NCBI GenBank assembly: GCA_011525745.1
Contig: WYBU01000012.1
Coordinates: forward strand, 1 to 64,000
Direction of reading: 5' to 3'
DNA: 64,000 bases
From: Planctomycetaceae bacterium
Lineage (GTDB): Bacteria; Planctomycetota; Phycisphaerae; UBA1845; UTPLA1
Notes under the pieces: model-generated
The model's database searches: none
What the model was told of the DNA's origin: nothing
What the model saw: only the letters and a program-made list of their open reading frames with translations
Program-made: the position numbers and the translations under genes
Part shown: positions 42,825 to 50,430 of the stretch, one piece after another
How positions within the stretch are numbered: the first letter of the stretch is position 1
Layout of the letters: every line of letters starts with the position of its first letter

Positions 42825-42866
42825 CAAGACAGTGTACCACGACCGGGCGTGTCCACGCCGGTTATC

Positions 42867-42932
42867 GGAGAGGGGGGGATTCGAACCCCCGGTACAGGTT
42901 TAAGCCCGTACAACGGTTTAGCAAACCGTCGC
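42867..42932 (-). other. attL: displaced 3' half of tRNA-Ser
   Basis: It matches the right-end tRNA-Ser in the acceptor/T region (42867-42890, identical to 50251-50274) and in the 21-bp core (42912-42932, identical to 50296-50316), but differs in the variable arm between them. The 5' half is missing, so it is not a functional tRNA. This is the original chromosomal 3' end pushed away by integration. Confidence 0.9.
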
Positions 42933-43237
42933 ACGATTCCACAAGCACAGATAAGACAAGCACTTGCAAGAGTGAGGATACGGACCCCCGCAGTAGTCTA
43001 CGCAGTAGTGGGGAATCTCAAGGGGGTTTCGTAGTGGACTCCGCCGTTTTACTCAATCTAGAACATACGTATCTAGATATCCTGAGAGAGTCTTACCCTG
43101 ACCTGTCGGTTCTGGTAGAGCTATGGCCCTCTCTACCTGACGGGGTAAGGCAGGCTATTACGACCCTGGCCCGCGCTTCAATTTCTACTTCCCGGCGTGG
43201 CTATGGATACGAAACCTCAAAAAATCCCGAGAAATAG
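42932..43237 (+). CDS. Detached C-terminal segment of the integrase (joined in the excised circle)
   Basis: An in-frame continuation of the integrase reading frame after the attachment core: 101 codons from the core to TAG. Its last 67 codons, from GTG 43034, can form a small stand-alone protein (VDSAVLLNLEHTYLDILRES..., WPSLPDGVRQAITTLARA). The frame phase at both core copies is the same. Similar ends (an acidic helix then WPxLPxxVRxxI) are recalled from planctomycete integrases. In the integrated state this piece has no clear start of its own except GTG 43034. Confidence 0.65.
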   Translation, partial: HDSTSTDKTSTCKSEDTDPRSSLRSSGESQGGFVVDSAVLLNLEHTYLDILRESYPDLSVLVELWPSLPDGVRQAITTLARASISTSRRGYGYETSKNPEK

Positions 43238-43252
43238 GGGGGTTTCGTATCC
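43205..43252. repeat. Attachment-flanking 48-bp palindromic repeat, left copy
   Basis: GGATACGAAACC at one end and its inverse GGTTTCGTATCC at the other, with TCCCGAGAAA inside. The right copy is at 49950-49997 in the same orientation. In the excised circle the two would lie about 270 and 300 bp on either side of the core. Confidence 0.8.
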
Positions 43253-43384
43253 AGGGGGGTGTGAAAATGGGGGGTTTGAGGGATGACGCGGGGGTGACTG
43301 ACCCGCCGGCCGGCGGCGGGGACTTTGTTAACGCTACCAAACCGGCCGCGTGGTGCGGCTGGCGAACTTTTGAAAGGAAGCGAC

Positions 43385-44086
43385 ATGGCAACGAAGACGA
43401 AGACGGCGACCCCGGCGACGGACGAGGCGGCGGAACTGGCGCGACTGCTGGACCGGCTGACGGACGCGGCCGGACGGATTCAATGGGGATGCCGCGTGCC
43501 GGAACCAAGCGGCCCGGCGGTGCTAGTGGCACGCGAACGGCTGGCGGCCCTGGGCGAGAAACTGTCCGACGCCCGCCGGCGGGCGGATACCCTGCGGGGT
43601 GAAATTGCGGACGCCGAATCCCGCGCCCGCGACCTGGATGAACAGGCGGACGCCGTGCTGGCCGGCGGCGATGCCGACGCGACGTTGAAAAGCCTGGCCG
43701 GCAAGCGTTCCGAGCTTACGGAACTGGACCACGTGACGCGGGTGTACGCCAAGGCAATTGACAAGACCCGCGAAACGCTGCGCCGCGCCATCATCGCCGA
43801 ATCGCCCGATGCGGCGGCGGCGGTGCGGCCGACGTTTGCGGCGGCGGTTGAAGCGCTGTGCATGGCAATCCGTGTTTGCCAAGCCGTCGACCCGTTGCTG
43901 TCGCGGCTGCGTTGCGCGTTTGAGGCGGCCGGTTACCGCGTTGCGGAAGATACGCTGGGCAATGTTTTGGTTCCGTACGAGCTTCGCGGCACGCAGGTGG
44001 AACGCACGGCGACGGGCGATGTTGTGAACCCGACGGTTTCAGCGCTCTTCATCGAGCACGTCCGGCGGCAGGGTTTCGACGTTTGA
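43385..44086 (+). CDS. Element-encoded coiled-coil protein of unknown function
   Basis: A 233-residue protein with a central heptad-rich helix (ARERLAALGEKLSDARRRADTLRGEIADAESRARDLDEQADAVL). A mixed C-terminal region follows (GYRVAEDTLGNVLVPYELRG). AAGGAAG precedes ATG 43385. It is the first gene after attL and the start of an operon ending at the terminator near 45020. No family was recognised. Confidence 0.7.
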   Translation: MATKTKTATPATDEAAELARLLDRLTDAAGRIQWGCRVPEPSGPAVLVARERLAALGEKLSDARRRADTLRGEIADAESRARDLDEQADAVLAGGDADATLKSLAGKRSELTELDHVTRVYAKAIDKTRETLRRAIIAESPDAAAAVRPTFAAAVEALCMAIRVCQAVDPLLSRLRCAFEAAGYRVAEDTLGNVLVPYELRGTQVERTATGDVVNPTVSALFIEHVRRQGFDV

Positions 44087-44130
44087 TATCCGAATTGGCG
44101 GGTACAATCGGGATGAAAGGCGGTGATGTT

Positions 44131-44487
44131 ATGATTCGATTCGGTGCTGGCGGATACCGGCATTCTGTGATGCGCGATGTTTGCCTGACGGCGGCCGCGG
44201 TGATACTTGACCATCGCGTGCGGCCCGCCGACGTGGCGCGCCGATGCGGGATGAGTGAGCGCGAGATTGTGAAGTTTCTTCGCGACGCGATGGACGGCGA
44301 TACGCGGCTCGGCTGGGATGATGCACGTGCGCTGCACAAAGCGGCGATGGAGCTGGCCGGCTTGCGTGCGGTAACAGCCCGGCCGCATTCCGCGGGGCGG
44401 TTGCCCACAATTGAGCGAGCGACGCGCAAGGCGGCGGACCCGGCCTGGCGCGAGCGCCGGATTCGGGAACTGGAAACGCGGAGATAG
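44131..44487 (+). CDS. Small helix-turn-helix protein
   Basis: A 118-residue protein with a compact HTH segment (VRPADVARRCGMSEREIVKFL). Earlier starts (44083 as TTG overlapping the previous stop, ATG 44113) are possible; ATG 44131 has AAGGCGG upstream. It probably regulates or assists element replication or packaging; its DNA target is unknown. Confidence 0.6.
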   Translation: MIRFGAGGYRHSVMRDVCLTAAAVILDHRVRPADVARRCGMSEREIVKFLRDAMDGDTRLGWDDARALHKAAMELAGLRAVTARPHSAGRLPTIERATRKAADPAWRERRIRELETRR

Positions 44488-44584
44488 GGGGAGGGGGGTT
44501 GATTTTCTATGAAACGGCGGCGTGGGGGACCGCACCCAACCCGCGCAAATAAACTCGGTGGTTTTGAGTGAAAAGGGGTGAAAT

Positions 44585-45004
44585 ATGGGATTGCGAGGAC
44601 CTCCGCCGCTGCCCGCGTGGCTGAAAGCTGACCGAAGCGGCAGGCGACCGCGCCCGGCGTGCAGATTCGCGCCCGGCCGACCGGACCCGCCGGCGGAAGT
44701 TACGGACGACGCCGACGCGCTGGCGGCGTGGCAAGATGCGGCGGATGAACTTGAGCAACGCGGCGACCTAACGCTGGCCGACCGCGCTGTGTTGAGCGTG
44801 TACGCGCTTACGTGGGGGCGGCTGATTCGCGCAGTACGTCACGTGCGCGAGCACGGGGAGCGAACGCACGAGGGGAAGATTGCAAGCGAACTGACGCGAC
44901 AATTGCGGACGTTTTCTCTAGCATTAGGACTGACGCCCGCCGGGCGGTTGCGGCTCGGCAACGCGGCCCCGGTCGATGAAGTGCCGTCGTTTCTGACGCG
45001 CTGA
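44585..45004 (+). CDS. Phage terminase small subunit, P27 family
   Basis: A 139-residue protein fitting the P27 small terminase pattern: MGLRGPPPLP start, then AAWQDAADELEQRGDLTLADRAVLSVYALTWGRLI, and a final helical RQLRTFSLALGLTPAGRLRL. Small terminase binds the packaging site and directs the large ATPase/nuclease. No large subunit is present, so in a satellite the protein would redirect a helper phage's terminase. It is the last gene before a terminator. Confidence 0.75.
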   Translation: MGLRGPPPLPAWLKADRSGRRPRPACRFAPGRPDPPAEVTDDADALAAWQDAADELEQRGDLTLADRAVLSVYALTWGRLIRAVRHVREHGERTHEGKIASELTRQLRTFSLALGLTPAGRLRLGNAAPVDEVPSFLTR

Positions 45005-45019
45005 CCTTTCTCTCGTTCC

Positions 45020-45057
45020 CGGCCGCGCGGGGTGCGTTGCCCTGGCGGCCGTTTTTT
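45020..45057 (+). terminator. Intrinsic terminator after the small terminase gene
   Basis: CGGCCGC (45020-45026) pairs with GCGGCCG (45045-45051), followed by six T (45052-45057). It separates the left module from genes that begin at 45189. Confidence 0.7.
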
Positions 45058-45188
45058 GTTGGCGACTCGGCGACGGTAGAGTAGTCTTTTCGGCGGGACG
45101 GTGGAGTAGCTATCCACCAAGCGGCAGGCGCGTTGAGTTGTTGCACCTGGCAATTCAGCGCGTCGGCCGGCCCGCCAACAGGTGCGGC

Positions 45189-45839
45189 ATGTCTCCGGTT
45201 CAATCTGTAGTTGATGCGGTTGACACGATTGTGCGACGGCGGACGCGATACCGGCATGCACGCTACGAGCGCCCCGCGGCCGACGCCGACGCGGCTGAGA
45301 AGATGCGGTTTTATGAATGGGACTGCCGCAACGACCGGCGGCTGAAAACGATGTTCCGCGTGGCGCGGGAGCGATGCTCACGGCTGATTGAATGGATGAG
45401 CAAATGCGGCGGGAACCCCGCCCCGGCGTTCAAGCTGCGGGAACTGCTGCGCGTGAATGTTGATGAAAAGACGCTGCGTGATGCGTGGCTCGACATCAAG
45501 CCGGCGCTGCTGGCGGAAGACATGCGGCAGGCGGACCGGCCCGCGCAGGCGGGCGAGAAAACGCCGTCACGTCGGCGGGTAAAAGTCAAAGTGAGCAAGG
45601 ACCGGCTGTCCGTAGAAATTGATGGTGAGCTTGTGCGGCTGAACTCCGAAGCCGATGGCGAGTTTGTGGCGATACTCTGGAAGAACCGAGGAACGTCGAT
45701 TGCCGCGAAGAATCTTGAAGACGCAACGAACCGGCGGCCCGACCATATTTACAAACGCCTGCCCAAAATTCTGCGAAACTGCATCATGCCCCCCGGACGG
45801 AGCGGCAAATCCGGCTATCTTTGGCCGAAGTGCGACTGA
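45189..45839 (+). CDS. Element protein of unknown function with possible winged-helix C-terminus
   Basis: A 216-residue basic protein. The N-terminal half is helical and charged (RHARYERPAADADAAEKMRFYEWDC). The C-terminal part (DGEFVAILWKNRGTSIAAKNLEDATNRRPDHIYKRLPKILRN) has the look of a winged-helix DNA-binding domain. It starts the right-hand module after the terminator. A role in replication or gene control is only inferred. Confidence 0.55.
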   Translation: MSPVQSVVDAVDTIVRRRTRYRHARYERPAADADAAEKMRFYEWDCRNDRRLKTMFRVARERCSRLIEWMSKCGGNPAPAFKLRELLRVNVDEKTLRDAWLDIKPALLAEDMRQADRPAQAGEKTPSRRRVKVKVSKDRLSVEIDGELVRLNSEADGEFVAILWKNRGTSIAAKNLEDATNRRPDHIYKRLPKILRNCIMPPGRSGKSGYLWPKCD

Positions 45840-45901
45840 ATACGTATTTCATACGACTTACGACGTTGAAGTCGCGGTTTTGCGCTAGCAATACTGCGTG
45901 C

Positions 45902-46069
45902 ATGGAAACCATCAAAATTCCTCCACTTAGCGAGATTGAAGCCGCAATCCGCAATCGGCGGCGGGAACTCGCCGAGTTACGCGCGCTGCTCCGTGTTGCG
46001 CAGGTGCGTGAGCTTACAACCCCAAAGCAAACCAAACGCGGCAGGAAGGCGGTGGCCGATGCGCGCTGA
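45902..46069 (+). CDS. Small element protein, 55 residues
   Basis: A small basic helical protein (IPPLSEIEAAIRNRRRELAELRALL, then a K/R-rich end). An AATACT -10-like box and a TTGAAG -35-like hexamer (18-base spacer) lie upstream, with the ATG 6 bases after the box, again suggesting a leaderless transcript. It overlaps the next start by 11 bases. Confidence 0.55.
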   Translation: METIKIPPLSEIEAAIRNRRRELAELRALLRVAQVRELTTPKQTKRGRKAVADAR

Positions 46070-46298
46070 AGCCCCCGCCCCGCCCCGACCGCCCGCGACG
46101 CCCGCCGGCGGCCCGGTGACGCTAGCCCTGAATGCCCCGGACGCGGCGGCGGCTCTGGGTATTTCAACCCGGCTGCTGTGGAGCATGACAAACCAAAATC
46201 GGATACCGCACGTCCGAATTGGGCGTCGGGTGATTTACCCCACCGCCGAGCTTCAAAAGTGGCTGAATGAGCAAATCTCGAAAGGGGGGCGGCGGTGA
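46059..46298 (+). CDS. AlpA/excisionase-like helix-turn-helix protein
   Basis: A 79-residue MerR-type HTH: DAAAALGISTRLLWSMTNQNRIPHVRIGRRVIYPTAELQKWLNE is the classic pattern of AlpA/excisionase-type proteins. These control excision and integrase expression in P4-like and PICI-like elements. It overlaps both neighbours (11 bases before; GTGA at its end with the next gene). Confidence 0.8.
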   Translation: MRAEAPAPPRPPATPAGGPVTLALNAPDAAAALGISTRLLWSMTNQNRIPHVRIGRRVIYPTAELQKWLNEQISKGGRR

Positions 46299-46921
46299 AC
46301 CCCCGATATAAAAAAAGCCCGCCCCGCGTCGTCAGCGCGGGAACGGGCGAAACTCAAGGCGGCCGATTCAACAGCGCGGAATTATACCCCCCGGAATCCC
46401 TGGAAGCAATCGAACTCGACGCCGTACGTGCGACGGCCGAAGCGTTGGCCGACGAACGGGCGGTGCTCGGCAAGCTTTGGAGCGACCCCGGCCCGGCGTT
46501 CGACCTGGCCCTCTCTGTTGGCCTGAACAGGGCGGCGTATTTCTCGCTTCCCGAGCACGCGGCGTTGTTCCGTATGCTCTGCTGGCACGTGGTCAACGCC
46601 GGCGGCGCTGATCCCGAGCCGGCTGACCCGGCGATTCTTCGCGTGGCGTTGGCCGACCTGCGAATTGAACTGACCCCCAGCAACTTGAATGCGATTCTTG
46701 GCGCCGGCTGCGGCTACGTCGGCGCTGATGAAATCGCCCGGCGAATTACCGAAGAACACTACCCCCGCCGCGTCCGCGTGGCCCGGCTGTGGCGGCTGTT
46801 ACGCGACCAAATGCGGCCAGCGAGCAAACCGAAACACGCCCCCGCGTCGAGCGGGGGGCCGACGAAACGCCCCGTCTTTTCCTGGCGTGCGATTCGCGGA
46901 ATGAAGGGCGGTGCGGCATGA
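46295..46921 (+). CDS. DnaB N-terminal-domain-like element protein
   Basis: A 208-residue protein. The first 30 residues (from GTG 46295, coupled to the previous stop) span an A-run/hairpin and may be only weakly coding. The central part (ERAVLGKLWSDPGPAFDLALSVGL, then YFSLPEHAALFRMLC) resembles the DnaB helicase N-terminal domain. No helicase domain follows in this gene; the next one carries an ATPase. The stop overlaps the next ATG (ATGA). Confidence 0.6.
   Translation: MNPRYKKSPPRVVSAGTGETQGGRFNSAELYPPESLEAIELDAVRATAEALADERAVLGKLWSDPGPAFDLALSVGLNRAAYFSLPEHAALFRMLCWHVVNAGGADPEPADPAILRVALADLRIELTPSNLNAILGAGCGYVGADEIARRITEEHYPRRVRVARLWRLLRDQMRPASKPKHAPASSGGPTKRPVFSWRAIRGMKGGAA
46310..46348 (-). 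terminator. Minus-strand terminator-like hairpin inside the element
   Basis: GCCCG and CCGCG arms (46317-46328) pair with CGCGG and CGGGC (46336-46348), and seven T follow on the minus strand. It lies at the beginning of the DnaB-N-like gene, where no minus-strand gene is annotated. Confidence 0.4.
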
Positions 46922-48429
46922 CCACTTACAAGCTCTTTCCCCTCGACGCCCTGCCCGAGCCTATGCGGCAAATGGTGCAGGAAACCGCCGTGGCAACCTC
47001 AACCGACCCGGCGTATGCGGCCCTGGCGTGTCTCGTAACGGCCACAAGTTGTATCGGGAATCGCGTCGCGGCCGTTGTCCGTGACGGCTGGATGGAGGCT
47101 GCGGTTTTGTGGGGTTGCCTTGTCGGCCGAAGCGGCACAATGAAAAGCCCGGTGTTGCGGCTCGTTGCAAGGGGTGCTGTCGAACTCTACAAGCAAAACC
47201 GCACCGAGTATCAATCTCGCCTGGCTGAGCACGCGTCGGCGGTGCAGCGCTACGCCGTTGAACTCGCTGAATGGAAGCGGCAACAGAGGGGCAAGGGCGC
47301 GCCGGTGACGGACCCGCCGGTTGAACCCGAAGCCCCTCGGGAAAAGCGCCTTTTGGTATCCGATGTTACGGTTGAAAAGTTGGGTGCGCTGCTGGAAGCG
47401 AATCCTCTCGGCTTACTGATTGTGCGCGACGAAGTGGCGGCGTTGCTCGGCTCGTTTGACAGATACGCGAACGGCCGCGGCGACATGCCCGCGTACCTGT
47501 CGTTCCACGACGCACACTCCGTCGTTATCGACCGCAAGAACGAAGCGGGAACGTTGTTCGTTGAACGGGCGGCGGTAAGCATTCTCGGCGGCGTTCAACC
47601 GGCCGTCTTACGTCGCGTTTTCGGCGAGCGGGAACGCGAGAGCGGACTTCTGGCGCGGTTTCTCCTTGTGAACCCGCCTGAAAGGCCCCAGCGCTGGAGC
47701 GACGCGGGGCTGTCGGATGACGCGGCGTATTGCTGGCGCGAACTGCTGGCGGCCCTACAAGGCATTCCGTCGGCGATCGACGATAACGGCTACGTCAGAC
47801 CGCACTTTATCCCTCTCGGCGACGAAGCAAAGGCCCTGTTTATTCCCTGGCTTAATGCCCATTCCGACGAACTCGCGGAACTCGCCGATGACGATTTACG
47901 AGCGCACTACAGCAAGCAGAAGGGCGGCTGTGTCCGCCTGGCGCTGCTGTTTGAATGCATCATGGCCGAAGGCGCAATCCGTTTCGTCGGCGCTGACGCC
48001 ATGCGGCGGGCAATCATACTGACGGAGTGGTACAAGCATGAGGCGGCCAGAATCTACGGCACGCTGCGGGATGACGCGGAGCAAACGCGAATCCGAAGCA
48101 TGTTGGAATGGATCGGGCGGCGCGGCGGAAGCGTGACGCCCACGGAGCTGGCGCGGTGCGGCCCCCGAGAATTTCGGGGCGACGCTGACATGGCGGAGCA
48201 AGCGCTTTCCCTACTGGTGAAAGCCGGATTCGGCCGGTGGGAAAACGTCGGCCACGGGCCCGACGGCGGGCGGCCGACGCTGCGATTCCTGCTAAGCCCA
48301 ACAGGCGGCGAGCACGCGGGTGGGAACGGGCGGGACATGGAACCCCCGGCGGCCGACGCCGACGGCCCGCCGCTGCCGGAACCCGACTTCAACCCCGACG
48401 AACATGAAGAAATTCCATTGCCTTATTGA
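46918..48429 (+). CDS. DUF3987-type primase/helicase-like ATPase
   Basis: A 503-residue protein in the DUF3987 group found in phages, satellites and integrative elements, thought to act in replication initiation. A P-loop-like stretch is GRSGTMKSPVLR and a Walker B-like stretch LLIVRDEVAALLG. The C-terminal region (EWIGRRGGSVTPTELARCGPREF, then winged-helix-like sequence) probably binds DNA. The P-loop lacks the usual second glycine before K (M in its place), as noted in some relatives. A promoter for the next module overlaps its last codons. Confidence 0.75.
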   Translation: MTTYKLFPLDALPEPMRQMVQETAVATSTDPAYAALACLVTATSCIGNRVAAVVRDGWMEAAVLWGCLVGRSGTMKSPVLRLVARGAVELYKQNRTEYQSRLAEHASAVQRYAVELAEWKRQQRGKGAPVTDPPVEPEAPREKRLLVSDVTVEKLGALLEANPLGLLIVRDEVAALLGSFDRYANGRGDMPAYLSFHDAHSVVIDRKNEAGTLFVERAAVSILGGVQPAVLRRVFGERERESGLLARFLLVNPPERPQRWSDAGLSDDAAYCWRELLAALQGIPSAIDDNGYVRPHFIPLGDEAKALFIPWLNAHSDELAELADDDLRAHYSKQKGGCVRLALLFECIMAEGAIRFVGADAMRRAIILTEWYKHEAARIYGTLRDDAEQTRIRSMLEWIGRRGGSVTPTELARCGPREFRGDADMAEQALSLLVKAGFGRWENVGHGPDGGRPTLRFLLSPTGGEHAGGNGRDMEPPAADADGPPLPEPDFNPDEHEEIPLPY

Positions 48430-48453
48430 CGTATACAACTAACGTTGTATAAT
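48426..48453 (+). promoter_or_regulatory. Promoter with embedded operator controlling regulator and integrase
   Basis: TTGACG (48426-48431) and TATAAT (48448-48453) are 16 bases apart. Between and into the -10 lies a perfect inverted repeat, ATACAAC-TAAC-GTTGTAT (48433-48450). The start ATG is 6 bases after the -10, so the transcript is probably leaderless. The position suits a repressor that blocks RNA polymerase, most simply the protein made from it. Confidence 0.75.
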
Positions 48454-48459
48454 CCGCGC

Positions 48460-48675
48460 ATGGATATCGTTCAACAAATACTGAAGCTGGCGCGTGCCCG
48501 CGGAATCAGCATCTATCGCCTGGCCAAAGATGCGGATTTGGGCGTGGCGGCCGTACAGCGCATGGTGAAGGGCGGCGGGGCGAAAGTTTCGACGGCTGAA
48601 AAGCTGGCCCGCGTGGTCGGCTGCCGGCTCGTGCTGCAACCCACCAAGAGAAAACAAAAGGCGGTGCAATCGTGA
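48460..48675 (+). CDS. XRE-like helix-turn-helix regulator of the element
   Basis: A 71-residue HTH protein: ISIYRLAKDADLGVAAVQRMVKGGGAKVSTAEKLARVVG is a compact XRE-like domain. It is cotranscribed with the integrase; its TGA overlaps the integrase GTG. It likely autorepresses via the inverted repeat in its own promoter. The start ATG 48460 is set by the promoter position. Confidence 0.8.
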   Translation: MDIVQQILKLARARGISIYRLAKDADLGVAAVQRMVKGGGAKVSTAEKLARVVGCRLVLQPTKRKQKAVQS

Positions 48676-50321
48676 AACAGCGCTCGCACGGGTCCGGCTC
48701 GTTATTCAAGCGCACCGAAAGCGGCTGCTGGATTGCGGCCTGGTATCTGCACGACGGAAGGCGACGGGAGAAAAGCACCGGCACGACCGATCGGGCGGCG
48801 GCGGCCCGGATTCTCGCCAAGCACGTGGCGGACGCGGCGCTGAGGCGCGACGGCGTGATCGACGCGAGGACCGACGGCTACGCCGAAGCGAATCGAAAAC
48901 CGCTGGCGGAGCACGTCAAAGAATGGAAGGCGTCGCTGACGGCCAAGGGCGTCACGTCGCAGCAGGTGAATCTTGTAACGAACCGCGTGACCTGGCTGCT
49001 GAACACCTGCAACGCGGAACGAATCGCGGACCTCTCGGCATCAGCCGTGCAGGCGGCCCTGGGCGAATTGAAGGGCAAGGGGCGGAGTCTCCAAAGCCTG
49101 CAACATTATCTGAGAGCAATCAAGCAATTCTCAAAGTGGCTGCGGCAGAATGGGCGGGTGCGCGAAGACGCCCTGGCGTTTCTCCAGGGCTACCGAGCGG
49201 ACGCGGACCGCCGATACGAGCGGCGGCCGTTCAACCCCGACGAACTCGCCCGCCTGATCCGGGCGGCCGAAGACGGCGAGCCTTGGCGTGACCTGATCGG
49301 ACGTGACCGGGCAATGCTCTACCGCGTCGCTACAGGGACCGGATTCCGTGCGTCTGAACTGCGGAGCCTGACCCCAACGGCGTTCCGGCTGGACGGCGAT
49401 TCCCCCTGCGTCATGCTTACCGCACGGGCGAGCAAACGCAGGACTGCCGACGTACAGCCCATTCGTCGCGACCTGGCCGACGTGGTGGGCGCGTGGCTGG
49501 CGGGCAAGCCCGCGGACGAACCGCTGTGGCCCGGCGCGTGGCACAAGCGAGCGGCCGAAATGCTGCGGGCCGACCTCGACAAAGCCCGTCAAACGTGGCT
49601 GCACGAAGCGGCAACGCCGCGGGAACGAACGCGACGGGAAGGGACGGACTTCCTGTCGGCCGAAAACGAGCAAGGGCTTGTGGCGGACTTTCACAGCCTC
49701 AGAGCGACGTTCATTACGCTTATCGTCAAGGGCGGCGTGAGCGTGAAGGTGGCGCAGGAACTCGCCCGCCATTCCGACCCCCGGCTCACGCTGAACACCT
49801 ACACAAGGCTGGGAATCCATGACCTCGACGCTGCGCTCGACGTGCTGCCCCCGCTGTCACGCGACGCGCAGGCTACGCCGCTGAGAGCGACGGGCACGGC
49901 CGGCGGCCCGCCCGATAAGCTGGCAATCGTTACAAACCGGCCCCCCCCTGGATACGAAACCCCCTCAATTCCCGAGAAAAACAGGGGTTTCGTATCCATA
50001 GCCACTACGAAGAATGAAAAAACGCACGGACCCCGAGAGGATCGGGAAGGAACTACAGAGCGGGGTACAGAGAGGGGTATACCACAAAAGGCGTCTACGC
50101 ACTTGTCTACGCAGTTGCTGAGCGAAGCGGTGCGACGTAGTGCGTCGTATGTCACAGATACCGAATCCTGTGAAGGTTCAGGTGGGATATCTGATACCCC
50201 TATGAATCAAGGGGTATTGCGAGACAATGCGACACAATACGACGTAATACGGAGAGGGGGGGATTCGAACCCCCGTAGCAGGTTGAAGCCCGCTAAACGG
50301 TTTAGCAAACCGTCGCTTTAA
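48672..50321 (+). CDS. Tyrosine-type site-specific integrase
   Basis: Inserts and excises the element at tRNA-Ser. The arm-binding domain (residues about 70-170) precedes the catalytic domain with R226 (GTGFRASEL), H341-x-x-R344 (FHSLRATF), H367 and Y377 (ARHSDPRLTLNTYTRLG). The catalytic part ends near residue 395; 150 more residues run through attachment arm repeats and antisense of the tRNA (RGGDSNPRSRLKPAKRFSKPSL), stopping at TAA in the tRNA. In the circular form the frame continues for another 101 residues (see 42932-43237). The length, 549, thus exceeds the usual 350-420. The start is GTG 48672, coupled to the regulator. Confidence 0.92.
   Translation: MKQRSHGSGSLFKRTESGCWIAAWYLHDGRRREKSTGTTDRAAAARILAKHVADAALRRDGVIDARTDGYAEANRKPLAEHVKEWKASLTAKGVTSQQVNLVTNRVTWLLNTCNAERIADLSASAVQAALGELKGKGRSLQSLQHYLRAIKQFSKWLRQNGRVREDALAFLQGYRADADRRYERRPFNPDELARLIRAAEDGEPWRDLIGRDRAMLYRVATGTGFRASELRSLTPTAFRLDGDSPCVMLTARASKRRTADVQPIRRDLADVVGAWLAGKPADEPLWPGAWHKRAAEMLRADLDKARQTWLHEAATPRERTRREGTDFLSAENEQGLVADFHSLRATFITLIVKGGVSVKVAQELARHSDPRLTLNTYTRLGIHDLDAALDVLPPLSRDAQATPLRATGTAGGPPDKLAIVTNRPPPGYETPSIPEKNRGFVSIATTKNEKTHGPREDREGTTERGTERGIPQKASTHLSTQLLSEAVRRSASYVTDTESCEGSGGISDTPMNQGVLRDNATQYDVIRRGGDSNPRSRLKPAKRFSKPSL
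49950..49997. repeat. Attachment-flanking 48-bp palindromic repeat, right copy
   Basis: The direct partner of 43205-43252, with the same GGATACGAAACC/GGTTTCGTATCC ends and TCCCGAGAAA core. Nearby are TCTACGCA-type repeats at 50094-50103 and 50106-50115, with a third at 42997-43006 on the left side. These are candidate integrase arm sites. Confidence 0.7.
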
Positions 50322-50340
50322 GCCACTCAGCCACCTCTCC
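50250..50340 (-). tRNA. tRNA-Ser (anticodon GCT), reconstituted at attR
   Basis: A 91-base class II tRNA. Acceptor GGAGAGG pairs with CCTCTCC plus a G discriminator; the anticodon loop is TTGCTAA in an ACGGT/ACCGT stem; a long variable arm follows. The 5' half is chromosomal; the 3' half beyond the 21-bp core (50296-50316) is supplied by the element, with a changed variable arm. The integrase frame ends inside it on the opposite strand. Confidence 0.95.
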
Positions 50341-50430
50341 AGCGTGGCGACCCGCGCCGTTGGCGACGCGGGTCGCGGACGATCAGAATATAGCACCGAT
50401 TTCGGCGCGCGAAAGTCAATTCTCGCCCGA

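Follow-up and report, generated by a model that had tools for sequence, protein, structure and literature searches.

The first 64,000 nucleotides of contig WYBU01000012.1 from a Planctomycetaceae bacterium (the window) contain a compact element inserted in a tRNA gene, which an initial annotation described as phage-satellite-like. The question raised by this locus is whether a stretch that carries an integrase and a phage-type terminase small subunit (TerS) travels as a satellite of phages, or belongs to some other kind of element. The locus holds a discrete, tRNA-integrated element with an integrase, regulators, a replication ATPase, and a maintained TerS, and without virion genes. We consider it likely that this is an integrated, small, TerS-directed phage satellite with a PICMI-like core and PICI-like packaging, spread most probably by parasitising a phage; that a helper phage packages it is what we infer.

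Limits, insertion site and genes of the element

The element measures 7,384 bp (7.4 kb), with limits 42912-50316, and lies inside tRNA-Ser(GCT) between perfect 21-bp repeats of the core GCGACGGTTTGCTAAACCGTT, identical at 42912-42932 and 50296-50316. Both the limits and the core repeats given in the initial annotation are thus exact by repeat comparison. The displaced tRNA 3' half at 42866-42932 comprises 67 nt and is 90% identical to tRNA-Ser(GCT), and joining the flanks at the core yields an intact tRNA-Ser(GCT) that is accepted by ARAGORN, confirming the proposed insertion in tRNA-Ser. The features of the locus are as follows.

42866..42932, strand -: tRNA-Ser 3' half displaced by integration, including the attL core (repeat comparison, joined-flank test)
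43204..43253, no strand: left subterminal palindrome TGGATACGAAACC...GGTTTCGTATCCA, proposed integrase/excisionase arm site (repeats, folding against shuffles)
43385..44086, strand +: 233-aa predicted coiled-coil protein, no family match, with a 76% identical copy in the sister and no other copy found (sister comparison, structure prediction)
44113..44487, strand +: 124-aa helix-turn-helix (HTH) protein with a regulator-like fold by weak structural matches, no family match (structure search)
44488..44584, no strand: non-coding stretch of 97 bp directly upstream of TerS, candidate packaging (cos/pac) or regulatory site (sister comparison)
44585..45004, strand +: P27-family TerS (PF05119, phrog_83)
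45189..45839, strand +: 216-aa protein, no family match (ORF call, profile search)
45902..46069, strand +: small ORF, 55 aa (ORF call)
46059..46298, strand +: AlpA-like/excisionase-type HTH_17 regulator (PF12728 1e-10)
46295..46921, strand +: 208-aa protein, perhaps with a DnaB N-terminal-like domain, the match being weak (PF00772 E 0.31, under the cut-off)
46918..48429, strand +: DUF3987 helicase/primase-type replication ATPase (DUF3987 1e-67)
48426..48459, strand +: TTGACG-16-TATAAT promoter containing, at 48432-48451, the perfect 8-4-8 dyad TATACAACTAACGTTGTATA; proposed as operator for xre-int (promoter scan, dyad)
48460..48675, strand +: XRE/Cro-type repressor (HTH_26 8e-7)
48672..50321, strand +: tyrosine integrase, its frame running through the attR core (PF00589 2e-12, phrog_1 1e-32)
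49949..49998, no strand: right subterminal palindrome, a copy matching the left one that falls inside the frame of the integrase and is likewise proposed as an arm site (repeats, folding)
50249..50341, strand -: reconstituted tRNA-Ser(GCT), including the attR core (tRNA scan, repeat comparison)

Element proteins were compared with Pfam, TIGRFAM-type, and phrog profiles, and with PADLOC for defence. Every gene lies on the + strand, the terminase at the left and the integrase last, as originally described. The integrase, XRE-like regulator, and DUF3987 ATPase named in the initial annotation are each backed by a profile match, and its P27 small terminase scores 45.5 bits with PF05119, above the curated cut-off of 24.7, and 3e-18 with phrog_83; the 35.1 bits obtained with TIGR01558 lie under that profile's stricter cut-off of 45.6. 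Two of its labels hold in part: the AlpA-like protein is indeed of the HTH_17/excisionase type, "AlpA-like" being apt in a loose sense (a single stray sub-threshold match to a terminase small subunit profile is also seen), and the DnaB-N-like protein is present as the 208-aa product, its domain label being weak. The reported absence of large terminase (TerL), portal, capsid, and tail genes is borne out, as no element protein matches any of these families in the profile searches, and the same searches match no relaxase or other Mob family. No iteron array is seen in 44900-46320; the DUF3987 ATPase is present as replication gene.

The palindromes TGGATACGAAACC...GGTTTCGTATCCA are placed about 270-300 bp inward from each element end, an arrangement that would be expected of attP arm sites. 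They fold much more strongly than shuffled sequence (z -4.8 and -7.3), and an extra half-site of the left palindrome occurs at 43023-43033. The motif is absent from all fetched loci except the locus covering the window itself; at corresponding positions, direct repeats of other sequences are present in the related elements L033, L040, and L043.

The proposed xre promoter is sigma-70-like, agreeing with the consensus at 11 of 12 positions, and the xre ATG stands 7 nt past the -10 box. As a scan of this region would be expected to turn up 1.6 promoters by chance, the call rests on the dyad and on the position. In a sister element described below, TTGACA...TATACACT stands ahead of its own xre.

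A sister element and the shared TerS module

The TerS search reveals another copy elsewhere in this genome (contig G000:C128, fetched as locus L053), within a sister element of 7,391 bp whose ends are marked by perfect 43-bp repeats of tRNA-Gly(TCC) sequence. Common to both elements is the left module only, consisting of the 233-aa protein, the HTH protein, TerS, and non-coding DNA. The respective protein identities are 76%, 48%, and 86%, and the corresponding dN/dS values between the two elements are 0.37, 0.35, and 0.24, the last of which places TerS under purifying selection. At the DNA level the 97-bp stretch before terS is 89% identical, compared with 85% for TerS and 60% for the HTH gene, and is more conserved than any gene of the left module. 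Structure prediction gives no useful fold for the 233-aa protein (pLDDT 48.6) and a predicted fold with pLDDT 79 for the 124-aa HTH protein, for which no structural match has an E value below 0.001.

In the other half the two elements differ. The sister has a Prim-Pol primase in place of the DUF3987 gene, and its integrase and xre show only distant similarity to those of the window (30% and 35% identity). Locus L090 in another genome has an integrase more similar to that of the window (48% identity) than the sister's is, whereas the window TerS is 86% identical to the sister's and at most 35% identical to any other. Because the left module is shared while the other half differs, and because the integrase is closer to that of L090, the packaging module moves independently of the replication-integration module, and exchange of this kind agrees with packaging and replication modules being selected separately. 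Outside the own genome, a sample of 392 genomes of the phylum yields only one marginal partial match to the left module, and a scan of viral_contigs and named genomes, weak owing to poor automatic peptide patterns, yields no relatives.

Both att copies of the sister (L053:9658-9700 and 2267-2309) are tRNA-Gly(TCC) 3' halves, neither joined to a 5' half, and the intact tRNA-Gly(TCC) of this genome lies elsewhere (G000:C18), which suggests that the sister sits in a tRNA remnant from an older event. That the two elements are almost equally long (7,384 and 7,391 bp) may be due to chance, as bounded relatives span 5.9 to 10.5 kb.

Presence of the module in two elements of one genome might also be expected if TerS served mainly for interference, protecting the host by blocking or diverting packaging when a phage invades, with spread being secondary; known PICIs do join TerS with interference (PMC6092414). 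This is nevertheless a distinctly improbable explanation, given that replication and excision machinery are retained and that PADLOC returns no match of weight, only one of E 8e-4 to the coiled-coil part of LmuB.

Related elements and the source of capsids

Gene calls in related genomes were made by a simple in-house script. A DUF3987 homologue occurs in 46 of 150 relative genomes. The initial annotation had proposed a search for the same gene set at other tRNA loci, and its outcome is divided: in 14 of 20 fetched DUF3987 loci the integrase runs into a tRNA that lies on the opposite strand, 13 different anticodons being represented, but a P27 TerS, the only TerS family searched, is clear in just one locus (L039) and marginal in another (L049). 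TerS is therefore not universal in this class of tRNA elements. Exact att copies are found in four of the 20 loci, delimiting about 8.6, 10.5, 7.6, and 5.9 kb.

Since most relatives of the replication core lack a P27 TerS, and since an HTH_17 and DUF3987 pair also occurs in the gut mobile-element-like record L099, the Int/HTH_17/DUF3987 core alone is no proof of a satellite. Both facts would also suit an ordinary integrative mobilizable element, moved by conjugation or chance transduction and having another role for TerS. Such an element is an unlikely identification, however, because no relaxase or other Mob family is matched and because TerS is kept in two elements of one genome along with flanking non-coding DNA. 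The record itself (MT837912.1, 5,996 bp, a human faecal "Bacteriophage sp." deposited unannotated) encodes an HTH_17-like protein, a DUF3987 homologue, and a primase-like zinc-finger/Toprim protein, and might not be a phage but a mobile element.

P27 TerS genes were sought in the same 150 genomes and the own genome, giving 56 matches. A TerL lies within 3 kb in 17 of these and not in the remaining 39, of which at least 15 are near contig ends and some are cut prophages (a cut TerL is seen in L082 and L083). Integrase and primase-type genes accompany TerS at interior TerL-less loci such as L092, L056, and L068, and compact TerS-bearing elements without TerL are present in several relatives (L055/L092, L056, and L068).

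These loci bear on the possibility that the element is a decayed prophage, that is, the two ends and terS of a former phage from which the remainder was deleted. TerS and integrase also occur as prophage genes, and prophages with both P27 TerS and TerL exist in relatives (L061, L064, L071, and L072). Decay is nonetheless improbable: all element genes are intact, TerS remains under purifying selection, a second element has the same left module with an unrelated replication and integration half, and the compact TerL-less elements recur in relatives. Nor do phage genes adjoin the element, whose neighbours are NUDIX-like proteins on the left and an M16-peptidase-like protein on the right, host genes as judged by eye. 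The complete adjoining prophage that the initial annotation named as contrary evidence is not found at homologous loci either, the relatives' elements standing alone beside tRNAs.

Two further sets of TerS loci were observed. In L058 (G062:C12), L066 (G127:C61), L067 (G086:C201), and L090 (G123:C20) a P27 TerS accompanies an HK97-type major capsid gene, while TerL is missing to a distance of 3 kb and a portal to a distance of 10 kb. Three of these four loci are close to a tRNA-Lys, and the four are possible capsid-carrying satellites. In L090, which has the integrase closest to that of the window outside the own genome, TerS is near a contig end. In L073-L077 (G013 and G002) a repeated unit of Cys-rich/HNH-like, ParB-like, and methylase-like proteins, named by eye, contains a P27 TerS without TerL; it is present in several copies, three with a tRNA at the left, and G013 has four TerS copies.

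Profile searches of the own genome, which is 92% complete, find no HK97-type TerL (PF03354), capsid (PF05065), or portal (PF04860), so that the helper of the proposed satellite would have to come from infection, belong to another type of phage, or lie in sequence that the assembly lacks. The sole TerL, portal, and capsid detected in the own genome belong to a Mu-type head and packaging cluster, which is split over two contigs and has no recognisable TerS beside it. In relatives the cluster is usually single-copy; a portal occurs in 95 of 120 of them and matches to the capsid profile in 35 of 41, and its TerL is linked to the portal in 61 of 68 checked. Its flanks consist of differing host genes, among which no integrase was observed. 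The cluster, conserved across this bacterial order, resembles a domesticated module of the gene-transfer-agent type. The order of the cluster is TerL (Terminase_6), Mu-type portal, head protease, virion protein, Mu gpT-type capsid, and head-tail adaptor, as observed at L054:10278-13498 (G000:C62), L105:2674-13853 (G000:C112), L101, L102, L103, L104, and L106.

As the only source of TerL, portal, and capsid found in the genome, and one with no recognisable TerS beside it, this host particle might package the element in place of a phage. We regard this as highly improbable, because P27 TerS normally pairs with TerL_ATPase (PF03354), as in the prophages of relatives, rather than with Terminase_6 types, and because the role of the cluster is only putative. 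Very unlikely as well, if slightly less so, is a satellite family that swaps a self-contained TerS/packaging module between unrelated backbones and whose motor in this order may be the vertically inherited, gene-transfer-agent-like particle of the host.

Proposed mechanism and comparison with known systems

Identification of the element as a phage satellite is supported by its precise att cores, restored empty site, and matching arm repeats near both ends; by a TerS that exceeds the Pfam cut-off and is under purifying selection; and, among relatives, by the 14 of 20 DUF3987 loci that abut tRNAs and the 39 of 56 TerS genes without a TerL within 3 kb. It is also supported by the PICMI, phage-inducible chromosomal minimalist islands of Vibrionaceae, which are experimentally shown satellites with the same core (PMC10803314). 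Gene content and the sister element likewise uphold the phage-satellite-like, compact character first assigned to the locus. Arm repeats, the xre operator-promoter, the extra left-module genes, and the sister element are additions to that description.

In the mechanism we propose, the XRE protein would repress xre-int through the dyad over its promoter until helper-phage infection lifts the repression. The integrase and the HTH_17 factor would then excise a 7.4-kb circle via the core and the palindromic arm sites, and replication would be driven by DUF3987, probably to concatemers. The element TerS would recognise a site in the element, for which the conserved 97 bp upstream of terS are the best candidate, and recruit the helper large terminase, so that helper capsids are filled with element DNA. 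The small size would call for packaging of concatemers, as in PICMI, or for small capsids.

Our literature search found no paper on satellites in planctomycetes, in a coverage that leaves out most subscription journals and preprints; the present reading would place TerS-directed phage satellites in this lineage. The natural pair of elements in one genome, having the packaging module in common and little else, narrows the location of the packaging site and of TerS partners.

Compared with known systems, the element lacks the TerL, portal, capsid, and tail genes of a prophage. The TerS of HK97-type prophages in relatives (L061, L071, and L064) belongs to that Pfam family as well, with an identity of about 30% in the cases that BLAST aligns, but there TerL lies beside TerS, and in L064 portal and capsid as well. 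P4-like satellites, of which genes of the sid, delta, and psu type are defining features, resemble it in tRNA integration, an AlpA-like regulator, and a replication ATPase, whereas no gene of these types is detected here and TerS is present. Own capsid genes define cf-PICIs, and no capsid or portal match occurs here. With PICIs and SaPIs that carry terS the element shares an integrase, a repressor, replication genes, TerS, a specific att site, and the lack of other virion genes (PMC6092414). It differs from them in that its genes all share one strand, int being the last, and form no divergent stl/rpr region, in using DUF3987 rather than the usual pri-rep, and in being smaller (PMC6092414). Further defining features of PICIs are a primase-replication initiator module having an iteron origin, and induction that depends on a helper, with specific packaging into phage particles. 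The remark in the initial annotation that its layout is unlike the classic divergent one is thus correct, and its term "PICI-like" applies to the att site with integrase, the TerS, and the absence of virion genes, but not to the layout or to the core, which is closer to PICMI. The published PICMI model consists of Int, HTH_17/AlpA, and a DUF3987 or DUF5906 primase (PMC10803314), and the integrase, HTH_17/AlpA regulator, and DUF3987 (PF13148) primase core is found in both, as are a small size (6.1 kb for PICMI115) and no recognised capsid-remodelling genes (PMC10803314). PICMI, however, have no terS and lie beside fis, whereas this element, in a distant bacterium, has a TerS module and lies in tRNA-Ser (PMC10803314). 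Filing it as a member of either the PICI or the PICMI is not justified; with a core of the PICMI type and a packaging gene of the PICI type, it would function as a satellite that combines both.
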